From: Cynocephalus volans
Lineage: Eukaryota > Chordata > Mammalia > Dermoptera > Cynocephalidae
Assembly (NCBI RefSeq): GCF_027409185.1
Contig: NC_084463.1
Location: 48,230,907-48,294,906 of the forward strand
Reading direction: 5' to 3'
Length of the DNA stretch: 64,000 nt
Under the pieces are notes generated by a model. That model did no database searches and had not been told where the DNA came from. It worked only from the letters and a program-made list of their open reading frames with translations. The position numbers were made by a program, and so were the translations under genes. Every line of letters starts with the position of its first letter. The first letter of the stretch is position 1. Shown here piece by piece: positions 12,938-56,559 of this stretch.

Positions 12938-13112
12938 TTTTTTAAGATGACCGTTAAGGGGATCTTAACCCTCGACGTGGTCTTGTCAGCACCATGCTCA
13001 GCCAGTGAGCTAACAGGTCATCCCTATATGGGATCCGAACCCAGGGCCTTCGTGTTATCAGCACCGCACTCTCCCGGGTGAGCCACGGGCCGGCCCTGCC
13101 CCACTCTTTTCT
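12899..13112 (-). mobile_element. CYN-type SINE (dimeric) with target-site duplication
   Basis: Minus-strand dimeric SINE. A poly-T tail (to 12943) is followed by 'gatgaccgttaaggggatct', a 'tcagccagtgagc' unit, 'atatgggatccgaaccc' and the terminal 'gagccacgggccggccc'. It is flanked by cactcttttct at 12899-12909 and 13102-13112. Confidence 0.88.
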
Positions 13113-17783: not shown

Positions 17784-19395
17784 CTGGTCAAGATGGTGGA
17801 ATAGATGGTCCCCAGCGTCACTCTTCCACAAATCAACCAATTTACAACCATAAAAATGTAACATCAGCCAAGCTGGGGCTGCTCGAGCTCAGGGGAAGAG
17901 GAGGAGAGACCTACAGAGTACATGAAGGTAGGAGAAACCACAATGAGAGAAAGAAAAATCAGCTCTGAGTGTTTGGGCTGCTGCCACTTTAAGGCTAGAA
18001 CTGCTGAGCGCATGGAGCAGGAACCAGCAGAAGCTGCAGCTGTGCCCTTCAGATGGAGATGCTTGGAAGCAGCAGGAGAGAAGAGGGCCTTGTGGCCCCA
18101 GGACAGCAAGAACACTAATAGGGTTCCCATGGACCCACGCAGGAGTGAGGAGCCAGAACAGCTGAAAAAAAGGAAGCCACTCAGAGGCTGGTGAGTCATC
18201 GCAAGGGACCAGTGCAGGGCCCATCCCATGGGAAGCATTTGCAGCACGGATGTTGGAGGAGACGTGCCCGCCAGGAGGACACTGGGACAAAGCAAGGACA
18301 GCCGATCTGCCCCCCAATCAGCACAGGACCAGCCAGACGAGACTGGTCAGGAATATAGAATTGCATGGGGTGCAGTTTGATGAAAATCTCAGGCCCAGAC
18401 CAGAGTTTCTATACAATCCTGGTGCACTGGGTCTCTGGAGAGACGGAAGTACTTTTAAGGTCAACCGTTAAACCCTGAGCTGCACAAAAAGCCTTTCCTA
18501 GGGAAACAGCTGCAAAGCAGCAATTTAGCTCAACCACAGAGCTCAAGTACTGGTTCCCACAGGAAATTCCCCCATTTTAGAAGTAAGCAAAAGACAAAAA
18601 ATTAGTTCCAGCCCAGGCACACCACCAGTGTCTTGGGACCTACCAGGTGACATGAGGCATGGACCAGGGACTGGACCCTCCCATCCACAACCAGGCACAC
18701 CATGCCAGTGCCTCAGGGCCTGCCTGGGGACCCAAGTCATACAGAAGGGGACTGGACCCCTCTCCCACAACCAGGCACACCATGCTGCAACTCGGGGCCC
18801 ACCCGGGGACCCAAGGTATGGAGCCAGGGACCAGACACTCCCCACAACCAGGCACAGCACCAGCACCAAGGAGCATGCCCAAAACATCACCTCCATGTGG
18901 GTGGCCCACCACAGCCACCACAATAACCATGGCTGCCACAAAAGCAGCTAACACCACAACCACCACGCAGGTGGTCCACCAGCCACTGGAGTGTATTGAC
19001 ACAAGGAGAGTCACCAGCAGAGATGAAGAAAGAAGGAGGATGTCTCTCTCCACAAAGCCCATTTCAAAGTGGCAGAAGAAGCATCTGCTCTGTGATAACA
19101 TTTGGGGTCCTGATCACACCTCTCAGCATTGAACGGATCATCTAGGCAACAAATCAACAGAGTAACCATTATTCTTTCAGAAGGAGAGAAGAAATCTAAA
19201 GTAGTTAGAGGGGGAGGAAGGAAGGAGAGAGGGATGGGGAGAGATTGGACAAGGGGCAAAAAGAATAATTATGATTTTTAACACTATATATGCTAGTAAT
19301 ATTGATTTGATCAACATATCTCAATGTTGAACCCCCAAAAAAGAATAATCAATTTTGACTCAATAAAAATTAATTTTTTTAAAATAGAAAGAAAG
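17784..19395 (+). mobile_element. Composite VNTR-bearing L1-derived retroelement, copy 1
   Basis: About 1.6 kb inserted within the DUX-like reading frame. It starts 'ctggtcaagatggtggaata', like an L1 5' UTR. An internal VNTR of about 80 bp per unit (18611-18890) follows, then a module rich in 'ccaccacaaccacc' resembling the 5' region of the L1 at 54.3-54.5 kb. The 3' end has a G/A-rich stretch and 'gatcaacatatctcaatgtt', ending in an A-rich tail. A second copy with identical layout lies at 47982-50542 on the minus strand. It contains no ORF1 or ORF2. No clear target-site duplication was found for this copy. Its architecture is comparable to primate SVA or gibbon LAVA elements. Confidence 0.75.
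18611..18890 (+). repeat. VNTR, about 3.5 units of 80 bp
   Basis: GC-rich tandem repeat with units beginning 'ccaggcacaccatgccagtg' at 18611, 18691, 18771 and about 18849. It is the short version of the VNTR at 48525-49690. Long open frames on both strands (up to 157 codons) result from the repeat and are not called. Confidence 0.85.
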
Positions 19396-19661
19396 ACAAT
19401 GGATCTGACCCCAAGTCAAAGGGATGCCCTGCAGGCATTGCTTGAACAGAGCCCCTATCCTGGTATAACCACCAGACAAAAAGTGGCCAAAGAAATTGGT
19501 GTTCCTGAGTCAGAAAAGAGATTTGGTTTCAAAACCAGAGAGGACGACGCCTCAGGCAGAGTCAGTCGGGGTCTGCAGGCTCCTCGGGAGGAGAGCAACT
19601 TCCTCAGCAGGAGCCACCTCGGCCTTGGACTCAGGAAACCTTACCCAGAGAAGGCAGATGA

Positions 19662-19799
<138 letters not shown>

Positions 19800-20740
19800 T
19801 AGTTTTAGAACCAAGGAGTTTGGCACCCAGGCCAGAGCAGAAGTGGACCCATGAATTCCCTGGCAGAAGGTCCACATCAGAGACCCCGCCTGACTTTTCA
19901 GCTGCAGCAAAGCGGCTTGTACACTGCCCCAAGCAACGACCATCGTCTTCTTCCCTCCACTTCTTTCAGCAGCAAGAAGTCATTTGTGCCAGCTCTTCCT
20001 CCACCCCACATGTCCTTTGGTCTTTGGGATCCCTCTGGGGGCTGAATGAGCAGGCACCGAGGCTCATGATGCTCCAGCTCACCCAGGCTATGCCAGGAGA
20101 ACTCTCTCAACCTGTTCTGACACTTATGAGTCACACGTCATTGGCACCAGCTCTAGGAGGGGGCTGTCACATACTCAGACTCCTTTCTGGTGTGCATACC
20201 AAGGAAAGTGCCGGGATGACAAGGACAATGGGCACACTGGCCTGGCAGTTCTGCCCATAAAGGGGCAGCCTCAAACAGATAACACTGAGGAACACTCGCA
20301 GGGCCTGGCTCAGCACATCCCACCTCATGCAGTGGTGCAGTGAGGAGCCCAGGACATGATGGTCCAGCAGGAATCTGGAGAAAAGGCACCTCAGCAGCCC
20401 GCACACACCCAGTCACCCCTGAGGTGGCAGCAGCCAGTACCAGCTAAGAAGCCATCTCATCTCGTGAGCAGGCAGACCAGCATCCTGCACAAACCTCAAG
20501 CTTTGAGATGGCCCTTTGCGCCCACACAGTATCCTGTGGTGAATCTGGATCCACAGCAGGAAGCCCCTCTACCACCCGATCCACCTCTCAGTGAGGAAGA
20601 ATTGTGGGCTCTGCTCGACACGCTGCAGAGCTCACCAGGGCAGCAGCTGGAGGAAAGGATGGGGTCCTCCTCACCACTGCAATCCAGGCCTCCTTCCCAT
20701 GGGGGCAGAATCAGTGTGATGCAAAAGAGGACAATGTAGA

Positions 20741-32597: not shown

Positions 32598-34198
32598 ATG
32601 GAGTCGGGAACGGAAGAAGCAGAACCTCACTGCTCCCTCCAGCACTGCACTGACCAGCCTTCTTTCCAACAACTCTCCTTTAAAGAAAGTGGCTCAGAGG
32701 AGGAGGAGAAACCATCTGAAGAGAAACACAAGACTCTGTCTTTACATTCCAGTGAGAACTGCACCCAGAGGCGAGGTACGGACTCGAGCTGTTCATGTGG
32801 AGGCTGGAAGGAAGGTAGACTCAGGGACAGTGAGGACGTTTCTTTGGTAGAGTTTAACTTTGAGACTGGGCTTGGGAAAGGAGTCATCACTCTCCAGGGG
32901 CCTTGAGAAATGTGGCAATTATCCCTTGGAAGCGTATTCTTCCCATTTACACTTGACACTGACTGAACGGCCTTGGTTGAGAGAATGACCCACAAATACA
33001 GATCGGGAACAGACTAGGGGGCTCTGAGGACCTAAGAGGAGCCAGTCACCTAAGCTCCCTTTTCCTCTAGGACCAGAACTTAATCTGAATGAGGAGGAGA
33101 ATTCCAAGGAAACTGAGCTTAACGCTGGAAACAGCATTGACAGATCAGGTAAGATTTGATTCTCTCAGGAAGGGAAAGGGATGGGGATGGGTTAACACAG
33201 TTTCCCCTGGGCATGGAATTGGGAGCTCTTGGCAGGCCGGGCCTTACAGATCCTGGACTCGAGAATGAAAGAGCACTGAGTTTTGGGTGCAGCCTCAGCT
33301 GCTTGTGTGTCCAGGATGGACCAGGGTTGCTAAGGTGTTCAGCTGTAGGCACTCCCTCAAACTCTCAATTATCCACAGAATCCGAGTCCAGCTCAGATGG
33401 GAGGAAGTCCAGGAAGAGGAAAATCAGTTCCAAGGACAGTTGCCAAGATGGAACAGGTAGGTCCTTTTTTGTCCTGAGAGCAGACCAGCAGGAAACTTAT
33501 ACAGGGCTTGGGCAGAAAGGATGTTTCTCAGTGTCGGAGAGGGTCTTAGAGATCCTGGGACTCAGAGAGTGTTTTGGTACCTATGAGGAGCTCAGCCTTA
33601 TTTCATTATGGAGACTCAGGGGGTCAGGAAGGAGGAGGAGAGACAAGTGGAGTTCACCTGAGGGTGCACGGTGAGATCCCGGGAATGAGGTCTGTGGAGA
33701 CTTTTCTGGCAAGTCTCTCACTCTCTTGCTTCCTCCCCAGGGAACTGTCTAGGAGATGAGCACAGCTTGACTTCAGAAAAGAAACCAAAGGCCTCTGACC
33801 CCGTGAACTTCAGGAAAATTGAGGAGACCTATGACGTCCACAGTTGGGAATTGCAGGGGGCCCACACTGGGCACAGCAAGAAGCCAAGATTTGGGTCCCT
33901 AAGACACCACCCACCACCACTTCGGAAAAGCCTGGTGACCTTCCTGCATGCTATGTGTGAGGTCATTTATCAAGACATAGCTCAGGTACAGGCCCAGCAA
34001 ATCCATTCTCCATTGACCAGGGAGCAGTTCTCTGATCTTGCCCAGCTCTGGGGGTCTCTGTGCACTGCAGTGCAGACCTTATATGCCATGGCCACCCAGG
34101 CGGCCTATGTCTTCCCTGCTGAGGGCTGGCTCATCCCAGCCCCAGAGCATGGTCCTGGAGATCCATCCCCGGATGGAAAAGCTCAGAGTTTCTCCTAG
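32598..34198 (+). CDS. FRG2: FRG2 family gene (FSHD region gene 2), four exons
   Basis: FRG2 is a nuclear protein of unknown biochemical role, expressed in FSHD muscle and activated by DUX4 in humans. Coding exons: 32598-32775, 33071-33148, 33379-33456 and 33741-34198, giving 263 residues in one uninterrupted frame (human about 278). Donors are GTACGG, GTAAGA and GTAGGT. Acceptors are pyrimidine-rich and end CTAG, ACAG and CCAG. All introns are phase 1. The start has a good context (A at -3, G at +4). Similarity to human FRG2 is clear: C-T-D-Q-P-S-F-Q-Q-L-S-F in exon 1; the basic RKRKISSKDSCQD, a likely nuclear localisation signal, in exon 3; and L-R-K-S-L-V-T plus Q-Q-I-H-S-P-L-T and MATQAAYVFPAE in exon 4. 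Exons 2 and 3 are both 78 nt. The nearest polyadenylation signal was not identified. The intact frame argues for function or recent loss of constraint. Confidence 0.93.
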
Positions 34199-47967: not shown

Positions 47968-50556
47968 GATTTGTAGTTCTTTTTTTAAAAATTTATTTTA
48001 TTTATTGAATCAAAATCGATTATATTTTGGGGGTTGAACATTGAGATATGTTGATCAAATCAATATTACTAGCATACGTATTGTTACAAATCCTAATTAA
48101 TCTTTATGCCCCTTGTCCAATCTCTCCCCATCCCCCATTCCCTCCCCCTCCCCCCTCTAATTACCCTAGATTTCTTCTCTCCTTCTGAAAGAATCATGGT
48201 TATTCTGTTAATTTGTTGCCTAGATGATATGTCCAATGCTGAGAGATGTGATTGGGTCCCCCAATATTATCATAGAGCAGATGCTGCTTCTGTCACTCTG
48301 AAATGGGCTTTGTGGAGAGAGACATCCTCTTCTTTTCTTTGACTCTGCTGGTGACTCTCCTTGTGCGAATGCACTCCAGTGGTTGGTGGACCATTTGTGT
48401 GGTGCTTGTGATGTCTAGTCACTTTTGCAGCAGCCATGGTTATTGTGGAGGCTGCAGTGGGCCACCTACAGGGAGGTGCCGTTTCTGGTATGCTCATTGG
48501 CACTGGCGGTATGACTGGTTGTGGAGTGTGTCTGGTTCCCTTCTCCATGTCTCTGGTCTGTGGACAGGCCCCAAGTCACTGGTGCCTTGTGCCAGGTTGT
48601 GGGAGGTGTGTCCAGTCCCCTTCTCCATGCCTTGGGTCCCTGGGCAGGCCCTGAGGTGCTGGCATGGTGTGTCTGGTTGTGGGAGAGAGGTCCGGTCCCC
48701 TTCTCCATGCCTTGGGTCCCTGGGAAAGCCCCAAGGTGCTGGCACAGTGTGCCTGGTTGTGGGAGAGAGATCCAGTCCCCTTCAGGACTCCGGGTGGGCC
48801 CCTGGGTGCTGGCACAGTGTGCCTGGTTGTGGGGGAGAGGTCTGGTCCCCTTCTGCTTGCCTCAGGTCACTGGGCAGGCCCTGAGGCACTATACTGGTGT
48901 GCCTGGTTGTGGGAGAGTGGTCTGCTCCCCTTCTCCATGCCTCAGGACCCTGGGCGGGCCCCAAGGTGCTGGCACAGTGTGCCTGGTTGTGGGAAAGAGG
49001 TCCGGTCCCCTTCTCCATGCCTTGGGTCTCTGGGTGGGCCCCGAGGCACTGGCATGGTGTGCCTGGCTGTGGGAGAGAGGTCCGGTCCCCTTCTCCATGC
49101 TTCAGAACCCTGGGTAGGCCTCGAGACACTGGCTTGGTGTGCCTGGTTGTGTGAGAGAAGTCCGGTCCCCTTCTCCATTCCCTGGGTCCCTAGGTGGGCT
49201 CCAAGGTGCTGGCATGGTGTGCCTGGTTGTAGGAGGGTGTTCCGGTCCCCTTCTCCATGCCCCAGGCCCCTGGCAGGCCTCGAGACACTGGCTTGGTGTG
49301 CATGGTTGTGGGACAGAGGTCCAGTCCCCTTCTCCAAGCACTGGGTCCCTCGGCAGGCCCCAAGGTGCTGGCATGTTGGGCCTGGTTGTGGGAGGAGGGT
49401 CTGGTCCCTGGCTCCATACCTTGCATCACTGGGAAGTACCCAAGGTGCTGGCTAGGTGTGCCTGGTTATGGGAGAGAGGTCCGGTCCGCTTCTCCATACC
49501 TTGGGTCCCCTGGTGGGCTCGGAGGTGCTGGCATGGTGTGCTTGGTTGTGGGAGGAGGGTCCAGTCCCCTTCTCCATGGCTTGGGTCCCCATGCTGGCCC
49601 CGAGGCACTGACACAGTTTGCCTGGAAGTGGGAGTGGGGTCCAGTCGGCAGATCCAAGCCTCTGGTTCCCAGGCAGGCCCCAAGGTGCTGGTGGTGTGCC
49701 CAGGCCAGAACTAATTTTTTATCCTTTGCTTCTAACACGGGGGAACTTCCTGTGGGAACCAGTATTTGAGTGTGTGGTTGTTTAAATTGCTGCTTTGCTG
49801 CTGTTTCCCTAGGGAAGGCTTTTTGTGCAGCTCAGGGTTTAATGGTTGACCTTATAGGTACTTCCAGCTCTCCAGAGACCCAGTGGATCTGTGTTCTATA
49901 GAATCTATGATTTGGGCCTGAGTTTTTCATCAAACTGCATCTCATGCAATTCTGCATTCCTGACCAGTCTCCTCTGAGTGGTCCTGTGCTGATTGGGGGG
50001 CAGATCGGCTGTCCTTGCTGTGTCTCAGTGTTCTCCTGGTGGGCATGTCTCTCCCAACGACTGTGCTACAAACACATCCCATGGGACTGGCCTGGTGCTG
50101 TTCATTGCAATGACTCACCAGCCTCTGAGGGGCTCCCTTTTTCTGGTTGTTCTGGTTCCTCGCTCCTGCGTGGGTCCATGGGAAATCTATTAGTGGTCTT
50201 GTTTTCCTGGGGGTTGCCGAGGCCCTCTTCTCTCCTGCCGCCTCCAAGTAACACAATCTGAAGTGCACAGCTGTGGCTTCTGCAGGCTTCTGCTCTGTGT
50301 GCTCAGCAGCCCCAGCCTTAAAGCAGCTGCAGCCAGAAACTCTCAGAGCAGCTTTTTCTTTCTCTCATTGTCTTTCCCTCCTTCATGAACTCCATAGGTC
50401 TCTCTCCTCCTCTTTCCCTGTGCTCCAGCAGCCCCAGCTTGGCTGATGTTACATTTTTACAGTTGTAAATTGGTTGATTTGTGGGAGAGAGTGACGCTGG
50501 GAACCGTTTATTCTGCCATCTTGACTAGAAACCCTGGTATTCGATTTGTAGTTCTT
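47968..50556 (-). mobile_element. Composite VNTR-bearing L1-derived retroelement, copy 2, with TSD
   Basis: Element 47982-50542 on the minus strand, flanked by the 14-bp duplication gatttgtagttctt at 47968-47981 and 50543-50556. It splits the host L1 ORF2. The layout is identical to copy 1 at 17784. The L1 5' UTR-like head ('tagtcaagatggcagaataa' in reverse at the right end) is followed by about 0.8 kb of unique head, a long VNTR, the 'ccaccacaaccacc'-like module, and a tail 'gatatgttgatcaaatcaat' ending A-rich on its own strand. The clean duplication shows that the whole 2.56 kb moved as one unit by target-primed reverse transcription. Confidence 0.85.
48525..49690 (-). repeat. VNTR, about 14 units of 80 bp
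   Basis: GC-rich tandem repeat. 'ggtccggtccccttctccat' recurs at 48691, 48771, 48841, 48921, 49001, 49081, 49161, 49241 and onward, mostly at exact 80-bp steps with one 70-bp unit. Because 80 is not divisible by 3 and the unit lacks stops in most frames, long overlapping open frames (up to 263 codons) run through both strands. They are artefacts of the repeat. Confidence 0.93.
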
Positions 50557-55437: not shown

Positions 55438-55610
55438 GGGGCCAGCCCGTAGCTCACTTGGGAGAGTGTGGTGCTGATAACACCAAGGCCACAGCTTGGG
55501 ATCCCTATATAGGGATGGCCGGTTAGCTCACTTGGGAGAGCGTAGTGCTGAGGACAAACACCAAGTCAAGGGTTAAGATCCCCTTACCAGTCATCTTTAA
55601 AAAAAAAATA
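55438..55610 (+). mobile_element. CYN-type SINE (dimeric)
   Basis: Plus-strand dimer: 'ggggccagcccgtagctcac' opens the first unit. 'tatatagggatggccggtta' leads into the second, which repeats 'gctcacttgggagagcgtag' and ends 'ccttaccagtcatcttt' with a poly-A tail. The two tRNA-like units are easy to see. Confidence 0.92.
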
Positions 55611-55816: not shown

Positions 55817-55887
55817 CCAATCAGAGCATAGCCTGCCATCGCGCCACCCGGCGGCTAACCAATGGGAGCGCTGCGGTGTTTATAAAA
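55817..55887 (+). promoter_or_regulatory. Histone H3 variant promoter
   Basis: CCAAT boxes at 55817-55821 (agccaatcag) and 55859-55863 (aaccaatggg) and a TATA box at 55881-55887 (tataaaa). This is the standard short promoter of replication-dependent histone genes. Transcription would start near 55911, leaving about 40 nt of leader. No DUX4 consensus motif was found within the adjacent few hundred bases. Confidence 0.85.
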
Positions 55888-55950: not shown

Positions 55951-56361
55951 ATGGCTCGCACCAAGCAGAGGGCGCGGAAGTCGACCGGCGGCAAGGCGCC
56001 GCGGAAGCAGCTGGCCGCGAAGGTAGCCCGCAAGAGCGCCCCGGCCACCGGCGGCGTGATGAAGCCGTACCGCTTTCGGCCCGGCTCGGTGGCGCTGCGC
56101 GAGATTCGCCGCTACCAGAAATCCAGCGCCCTGCTGGTCCGCAAACTGCCGTTCCAGCGGCTGGTGCGAGAGGTCGCGCAGGATTTCAAGCCAGACCTGC
56201 GCTTTCAGATGTCGGCCATGATGGCGCTCCAGGAGGCCTGCGAGTCCTACTTGGTGGGGCTGTTTGAGGACGCCAACCTGTGCGCCATCCACGGCAAGCG
56301 TGTCACCATCATGCTCAGAGACATGCAGCTGGCGCGCCGCCTCCGCGGGCCGCGGGTCTAG
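55951..56361 (+). CDS. Histone H3 variant, H3.Y-like, with Met36
   Basis: Intact intronless 136-codon H3 (135 residues after Met removal), starting M-A-R-T-K-Q. The histone fold is complete, and K4, K9, S10, K14, K18, K23, K27 and K56 are kept. Against human H3.1 I count 23 changes: R6, A22, V24, M36, Y39, F41, S45, S58, A59, V62, V74, P80, M86, M89, S98, A107, G114, L121, R122, M124, L130, P133 and V135. Codon 36 is ATG at 56059-56061, so a lysine that normally carries methylation is methionine. P80, R122, M124 and L130 also occur in primate H3.Y as I recall it, so an H3.Y-related lineage is likely. The ending G-P-R-V is unusual. The flanks carry promoter and stem-loop signals, so it is a real replication-type histone gene rather than a retrocopy of an H3.3 mRNA. 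No lesion is visible. Expression and incorporation are unknown. Confidence 0.93.
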
Positions 56362-56400
56362 GCTCCACGGGCGGTCGCCCTGAGGTCTTGTCACTCCAAA

Positions 56401-56440
56401 GGCTCTTTTCAGAGCCACCCGTTTGGTACAGAAAGTGGCT
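56401..56440 (+). terminator. Histone 3' stem-loop and downstream element
   Basis: The stem-loop ggctcttttcagagcc (56401-56416) is a perfect match to the histone mRNA consensus, 39 nt after the stop codon, followed by ACCC at the expected cleavage site. A purine stretch 'cagaaagtgg' at 56429-56438 is at the right distance for the U7-binding histone downstream element. Confidence 0.95.
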
Positions 56441-56559
56441 GTAACATGGCGGGTTTCCGGGCGTCCAGGGGGCTTCTTCCGGCGGTCGGTGCCGGTTCTG
56501 TCCCCTCTGTTCGCTTATCAATTAGGTAGGTAATAAACCTAATGAGGTGTTTGCGGTAA

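Follow-up and report, generated by a model that had tools for sequence, protein, structure and literature searches.

A 24-copy family of H3.4-derived histone H3 genes encoding methionine 36 in the colugo Cynocephalus volans

In some human bone tumours the driver is reported to be a replacement of lysine 36 of histone H3 by methionine, which jams a chromatin enzyme. Can the same residue belong to a normal H3 gene in a mammalian genome, and if so, what would such a gene do? The question is raised by a locus in the 64,000-nucleotide stretch of Cynocephalus volans DNA analysed here, hereafter the window. An earlier note had read it as an intact germline H3 gene with ATG at codon 36, retained K4, K9 and K27, and promoter and 3' processing signals. 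Translation of positions 55951-56361 confirms the unbroken frame, the ATG and all three of the other lysines, and the signals are present as well. The features of the gene, one of a group of full-length copies that we call class A, are as follows (residues are numbered with Met as 0):

55817..55821, + strand: distal CCAAT box, by direct reading; also found in the seven copies with listed upstream sequence
55859..55863, + strand: proximal CCAAT box, by direct reading
55881..55887, + strand: TATA box, TATAAAA; found in 25 of 25 family members
55951..56361, + strand: H3.4-derived histone H3 gene, class A, Met36; 136 codons plus TAG, unbroken
56059..56061, + strand: codon 36, ATG (Met for Lys); shared by all 24 derived copies, whereas the parent H3-4 has AAG
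56068..56070, + strand: codon 39, TAC (His to Tyr); Tyr39 in 24 of 24 derived copies
56396..56442, + strand: histone 3' UTR stem-loop with downstream element, replication-dependent type; Rfam RF00032

The gene is intronless and combines a CCAAT/TATA promoter with a 3' stem-loop, the attributes of a replication-dependent histone gene. The stem-loop is matched by RF00032 with 36.4 bits (E=5.9e-7) and the reading frame by Pfam Histone with E=2.3e-42. The encoded protein is about 84% identical to the canonical H3.1 copies of the same genome and 96% identical to a C. volans database entry named 'histone H3.1-like' (12 member sequences). Elsewhere in the window, long overlapping frames on both strands at 48303-49769 encode a repeated Gly/Cys/Trp-rich unit, apparently a minisatellite, with a similar stretch near 18543-19132. 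A tRNA-like match on the minus strand at 12948-13019, just over threshold with 31.3 bits, is probably a tRNA-derived SINE; the sequence at about 55514-55594, upstream of the H3 gene, resembles it by eye.

Whole-genome searches with the protein and with a 1,281-base DNA query covering the gene and flank converge on the same 25 places, all on contig C4 between 39.9 and 50.9 Mb (about 11 Mb, median spacing 216 kb). The DNA search scored 40 of its 41 candidates; 24 copies span the query from end to end, and C30, a class C copy, covers its positions 1-1206. Among the scored candidates the only partial relic of the family on C4 lies at 72.28 Mb and matches at 66%. The stem of the 3' stem-loop, like the TATA box, is found in all 25 copies, with variants in the loop. 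Class A comprises 13 full-length copies, the window copy included. The six class B copies (L023-L028) carry the tail MDHTKETAWNSTGGG, with R8W, K9N, R26C and K27Q; in these open frames K9, K27 and K36 are thus all replaced (N9, Q27, M36), while K4 is kept. The five class C copies lack residues 107-113. This deletion in class C, and in class B the loss of K9 and K27 along with changes in the core, may impair nucleosome assembly. Codon 36 is ATG in all 24 copies of the three classes, and these form one clade (support 99) with the 25th copy, K21 (C4:50,874,339), as sister; the codon 36 of K21 is AAG, lysine. The Met36 observation is therefore real and larger than first noted. A natural Met36 H3 gene does exist in the colugo, as the earlier note had it; it is not a lone copy of canonical H3, but one of 24 members of a lineage-specific amplified family of H3-4 (H3t) paralogues.

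Judged by sequence and position, K21 is the HIST3 gene H3-4 itself, the parent of the Met36 family, because it has Lys36, the V24/C96/S98 combination reported to mark H3.4 (PMC13396413), and TRIM17 exons 17 kb away. A HIST3 location next to TRIM17 and TRIM11 is a hallmark of H3.4, found for K21; the window copy lies outside the cluster. TRIM17 exon 1 is at C4:50,891,632, 17.3 kb from K21, with 84% identity to human residues 1-144, and the last exon is at C4:50,899,621 (81% identity). Exons of a second TRIM gene, presumably TRIM11, follow downstream of K21 at C4:50,901,622 and 50,910,281; H2A or H2B neighbours are absent from the 19 kb around K21. Ser98 is found in all 25 copies, and Cys96 in the window copy and K21, with Tyr at 96 in three class C copies. 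Val24 is shared by the window copy and K21 and occurs in 10 of the 13 class A copies (the others have L, L and G) and four of the five in class C, and in none of the six in class B, which have G. The published account describes H3.4 as a single gene with no V24 paralogue outside HIST3 in the 109 mammalian genomes searched (PMC13396413), a paper whose main text does not contain the names Cynocephalus, Galeopterus or Dermoptera. Neither the single gene nor the strong constraint expected of H3.4 is found here: with 25 copies and a class A omega of 0.23-0.53, we file the family as H3.4-derived paralogues rather than as H3.4 itself.

Two other origins were considered and rejected on the tree, synteny and best matches: the canonical H3 clusters, and the DUX4-induced variant H3.Y, for which the synteny in question is that of HIST3. 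The best 60 of 222 solved relatives of the window protein are H3t/H3.1t, H3.1, H3.2, H3.3, H3.3C, H3.6 or plain H3, and none is H3.Y. A few C-terminal residues of the colugo family (R122, M124, L130) presumably recall H3.Y. An X-linked meiotic-drive array was likewise rejected: HPRT1 exons map to contig C30, so C4 is not the X chromosome.

How the copies spread can be read from their surroundings. Downstream of at least 14 of the 24 derived copies lies a copy of TRIM17 exon 1, at a distance of 17.0-18.3 kb in 13 cases and of 9.5 kb in one; for the window copy the distance is 17.4 kb, close to that in the parent. The HIST3 H3-4 locus was therefore duplicated. Two further passengers of the block are found upstream of the window gene, which is one of seven class A copies that share them:

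33767..34198, + strand: FRG2-domain reading frame, beside seven class A copies
19324..19854, + strand: DUX-like homeodomain fragment; weakly matched by Pfam (19.2 bits, cut-off 22.9)

The DUX-like fragment lies about 36.6 kb upstream of the H3 gene, with similar pieces near the same class A copies, at least seven in number. Both the TRIM17 and the DUX-like counts are lower bounds, as 89 of 491 and 150 of 354 candidates, respectively, were scored. Truncated TRIM17 copies, comprising the RING/B-box exon, occur in at least 16 places on C4 between 39.9 and 50.4 Mb (L055-L070); 15 of the 16 found share the same new C-terminal reading after this exon (CLGTRW or YLGTRW), and four have a stop at codon 11. 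On other contigs, C15 carries a large TRIM-like gene cluster at 146.49-147.95 Mb, with dozens of matches at about 30-35% identity to TRIM17 and many open frames of 470-540 aa, and DUX-like homeodomain frames, mostly open for about 460 aa, are arrayed in steps of about 4.3 kb on C12 (89,966,455-90,329,825; about 80 of the 120 listed matches) and on C96, as in a D4Z4-like macrosatellite. K21 and the window copy differ by about 5% in the downstream flank, and pS between K21 and class A is 0.07. With a mammalian substitution rate near 2e-9 per site per year, these figures suggest, as a rough estimate, that the Met36 family is some 10-20 million years old.

Which residues has the family held on to? 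Only two departures from K21, K36M and H39Y, are shared without variation by the 24 derived copies; residue 133 is likewise never that of K21, but it varies among the copies, as do 61 of the 136 residues in all. Codons 35-40 form the only six-codon window of 130 without a segregating base. By shuffling, the probability is 0.0027 for this window alone and 0.19 for any such window; because of the latter figure, and because the window was picked after the data had been seen and its silent sites are invariant too, the invariance is suggestive only. G33, G34, V35, K37, P38, R49 and R52 are kept in all 13 class A copies, and Phe replaces Tyr41 in ten of them, removing its hydroxyl. The stretch G33, G34, V35 and P38, where SETD2 specificity is reported to be strongest (PMC7495481), is combined with Met36 in the window copy, in all of class A and in 22 of 24 copies overall, the exceptions being G34C in class B copy B27 and G33S in class C copy C33. 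At position 39, the published preference of SETD2 is for Y, among other residues, rather than H; it applies to Lys36 peptides, and the crystal structure showed no specific contact of residue 39 (PMC7495481). On the nucleosome, Y41, R49 and R52 of H3 are described as contacting SETD2, R49 and R52 through its AWS domain (PMC8110526), and published SETD2 and nucleosome complexes with M36 exist. With G33, G34, V35, K37, P38, R49 and R52 retained, class A tails should be capable of binding SETD2 in a manner similar to the tumour mutant. The block of H3K36 methyltransferases expected by the earlier note would fit the local sequence and the published structures. K36M also acts on NSD enzymes.

The leading, if unproven, reading of the Met36 family is thus inhibition of H3K36 methylation. 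In full, the proposal is that these are amplified H3-4 paralogues of which class A is coding and supplies male germ cells with an H3 that inhibits H3K36 methylation, and we put its chances a little short of even. K36M and H39Y would have arisen once, before the copies spread, and at least class A would still be coding. Like H3-4, class A would be produced in male germ cells during S phase and would enter nucleosomes alongside ordinary H3; H39Y may help binding, and the 13 copies would supply dose. Descent from H3-4 is what would justify the germline label of the earlier note, and it is likewise from this descent that we infer spermatogonial expression. It is plausible that K36 plays a role in the male germ line: one paper in point concerns KDM2A (PMC12287389), and H3.4 has been suggested to modulate PRDM9 marks (PMC13396413).

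How firmly is class A coding? The strongest evidence is that the frames have stayed open. The earlier note had named findings that would undo its case: reads with lysine at codon 36, or many disabled alleles together with an absence of transcription. In this one assembly, lysine at codon 36 is absent from all 24 derived loci and a disabled frame from all 25 copies found, so these are not pseudogenes by the standard of a broken frame. At two of the 16 TRIM17 copies (C4:49321162 and C4:48974484), 6 kb of sequence each, taken where the gene should lie, gave no H3 gene match, only short flank matches; some duplicated blocks therefore lack the gene, and the count of 25 open frames in 25 takes no account of deletions. 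In CpG-aware neutral simulation along the tree (300 replicates per setting, gene conversion left out), 9-13 of 24 copies are expected to be broken, against none observed, and the chance of no nonsense or start-loss change in 24 copies is 0.003-0.023. No frameshift is found in the 408 bp of coding sequence. In the downstream flank, by contrast, gap intervals of a length other than a multiple of three number 17 for class A (778 bp) and 26 across the three classes (781 bp), the latter a figure that may be inflated by the poorly aligning flank (80% identity) of class C copy C30; the GC-rich promoter is also gap-poor, with one interval in 120 bp. This retention argues for coding genes.

Substitution rates speak less clearly. 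The dN/dS calculation that the earlier note had proposed gives class A an omega below 1 in each of three codon models (0.23, 0.32 and 0.53; 2 delta lnL 33.6, 20.6 and 6.8), and in the same models the control, the 16 duplicated TRIM17 exon-1 fragments, four of them with a stop at codon 11, gives 0.21, 0.31 and 0.60. As the control returns the same values, omega does not decide coding status, and we rejected omega below 1 as decisive proof of function. Class A pN/pS is 0.53, marginal against the CpG-aware neutral null (P 0.04-0.08), and classes B and C are indistinguishable from neutral; simple pN/pS is 0.97 within class C, and between groups 1.08 (A-B), 0.69 (A-C), 0.90 (B-C), 0.65 (A-K21), 1.08 (B-K21) and 0.53 (C-K21). 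H3-4 genes elsewhere are reported to have a dN/dS of 0.024 (PMC13396413), and the 0.46 published for H3-4 pseudogenes is close to the uncorrected values of the colugo family. In branch tests under the GY model (Met36 stem, class A crown and class A stem), the stem of the Met36 clade has an omega of 0.26, indistinguishable from 1 (2 delta lnL 1.06), and hence no positive selection is seen where K36M arose. On the whole, selection has probably kept the Met36 frames open, with the protein changing rapidly or under much relaxed constraint.

The same data can be read differently. H3 copies might simply have been carried along by rapid segmental duplication, with K36M and H39Y drifting in one unconstrained progenitor, frames open through youth or gene conversion, and little or no expression. 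The joint amplification of flanks, TRIM17 exon 1, FRG2 and DUX-like fragments with H3 fits such passengers, as do the class A coding divergence of 3.7% beside 3.9% in the flank, the equal omega of the TRIM17 fragments, the lack of visible positive selection on the Met36 stem and the damaging-looking changes in classes B and C. Against it stand the complete set of unbroken frames, the absence of coding frameshifts beside a gap-rich flank, and the four TRIM17 fragments that do carry a stop; we regard passengers as quite possible, though on balance doubtful. Nor would coding genes have to act on the enzymes. As working H3.4 paralogues with Met36 felt in cis only, their own nucleosomes would be unmethylable at position 36 and the enzymes would stay free, the gain being chromatin free of H3K36 methylation or extra spermatogonial H3 dosage. 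The evidence for coding status serves this version equally, and H3-4 is reported to be dosage-sensitive in mouse spermatogenesis (PMC13396413). However, published K36M inhibits in trans, an activity said to be largely lost against SETD2 with G34R or P38V (PMC5335568), and of these two required residues, G34 is present in 23 of the 24 copies and P38 in all of them; moreover, the inhibitory residue is found together with the SETD2-favoured Tyr39. We consider a purely cis effect unlikely. The chance of an assembly or sequencing artefact at codon 36 is negligible: there is a single assembly and recently duplicated blocks are prone to misassembly, but a local slip is very improbable with ATG at this codon in 24 separate loci, which diverge from the window copy by as much as roughly 10% in coding sequence, and three C. 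volans database proteins, though not independent of this assembly, also have Met36.

Within the preferred reading, inhibition of H3K36 methylation, a more specific version is rather unlikely as it stands: a dedicated multi-copy germline histone serving as a dose-amplified, developmentally confined inhibitor of H3K36 methylation (by SETD2/NSD, perhaps including PRDM9-dependent K36me3 at hotspots), possibly in a male-germline conflict. Conflict is conceivable because copy number, the class C shortening and the class B tails diversify, with Met36 and Tyr39 fixed. If expressed, the family would give a healthy mammal its own natural K36M oncohistone, and one could test directly how germ cells tolerate, or exploit, a human tumour-driving change. 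Expressed or not, it contradicts the published picture in which eutherians have one H3-4 gene and no V24 paralogue outside HIST3; it is also a case of a testis H3 gene that has multiplied as part of a young segmental duplication.

Among known systems, the nearest is H3.4 (H3t, H3.1t; gene H3-4, mouse H3f4), the HIST3 testis histone, and an H3t chain is the best solved-structure match of the window protein. The likeness lies in V24, C96 and S98, in the neighbourhood of K21, with its TRIM17 exons and another TRIM gene, and in the replication-type promoter and stem-loop; the colugo family differs in Met36, Tyr39, at least 25 copies and a much faster protein change. With the H3.3 and H3.1 K36M oncohistones of chondroblastoma it shares Met36 within G33-G34-V35-M36-K37-P38, a likeness of sequence, and an M36 chain (7e8d_A) is among its solved-structure matches; that change is somatic and tumour-borne, whereas the colugo genes are germline genes and carry H39Y and often Y41F. 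Titles and abstract openings in the literature searched yielded no natural mammalian H3 with Met36 and no paper on colugo histones. Met36 is not unique in eukaryotes, since GGVMKPHR occurs in eight non-colugo H3 proteins among 214 (P0124, P0127-P0130, P0132, P0134 and P0140; JGI/ENA sources, one nematode), but these have His39 and lack the other residues of the colugo family. Four of them, from ENA sources (P0128, P0129, P0130 and P0132), also have Met at the position aligning with K27, and the P0129 cluster stands for 7027 sequences. Among the best 120 proteins listed per search, Met36 with Tyr39 is confined to the query and three Cynocephalus entries (P0038, P0123 and P0135); none is named Galeopterus, which says nothing on that genus, as its proteome may not be in the database. 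The closest parallel in kind is EZHIP (CXorf67), described as a natural K27M-like inhibitor of PRC2 (PMC6513997). EZHIP is a non-histone protein directed at PRC2, whereas the colugo genes encode H3, with H3K36 enzymes as the expected target; if expressed, the family would be the histone counterpart of EZHIP, in that a normal genome would encode an oncohistone-like inhibitor.
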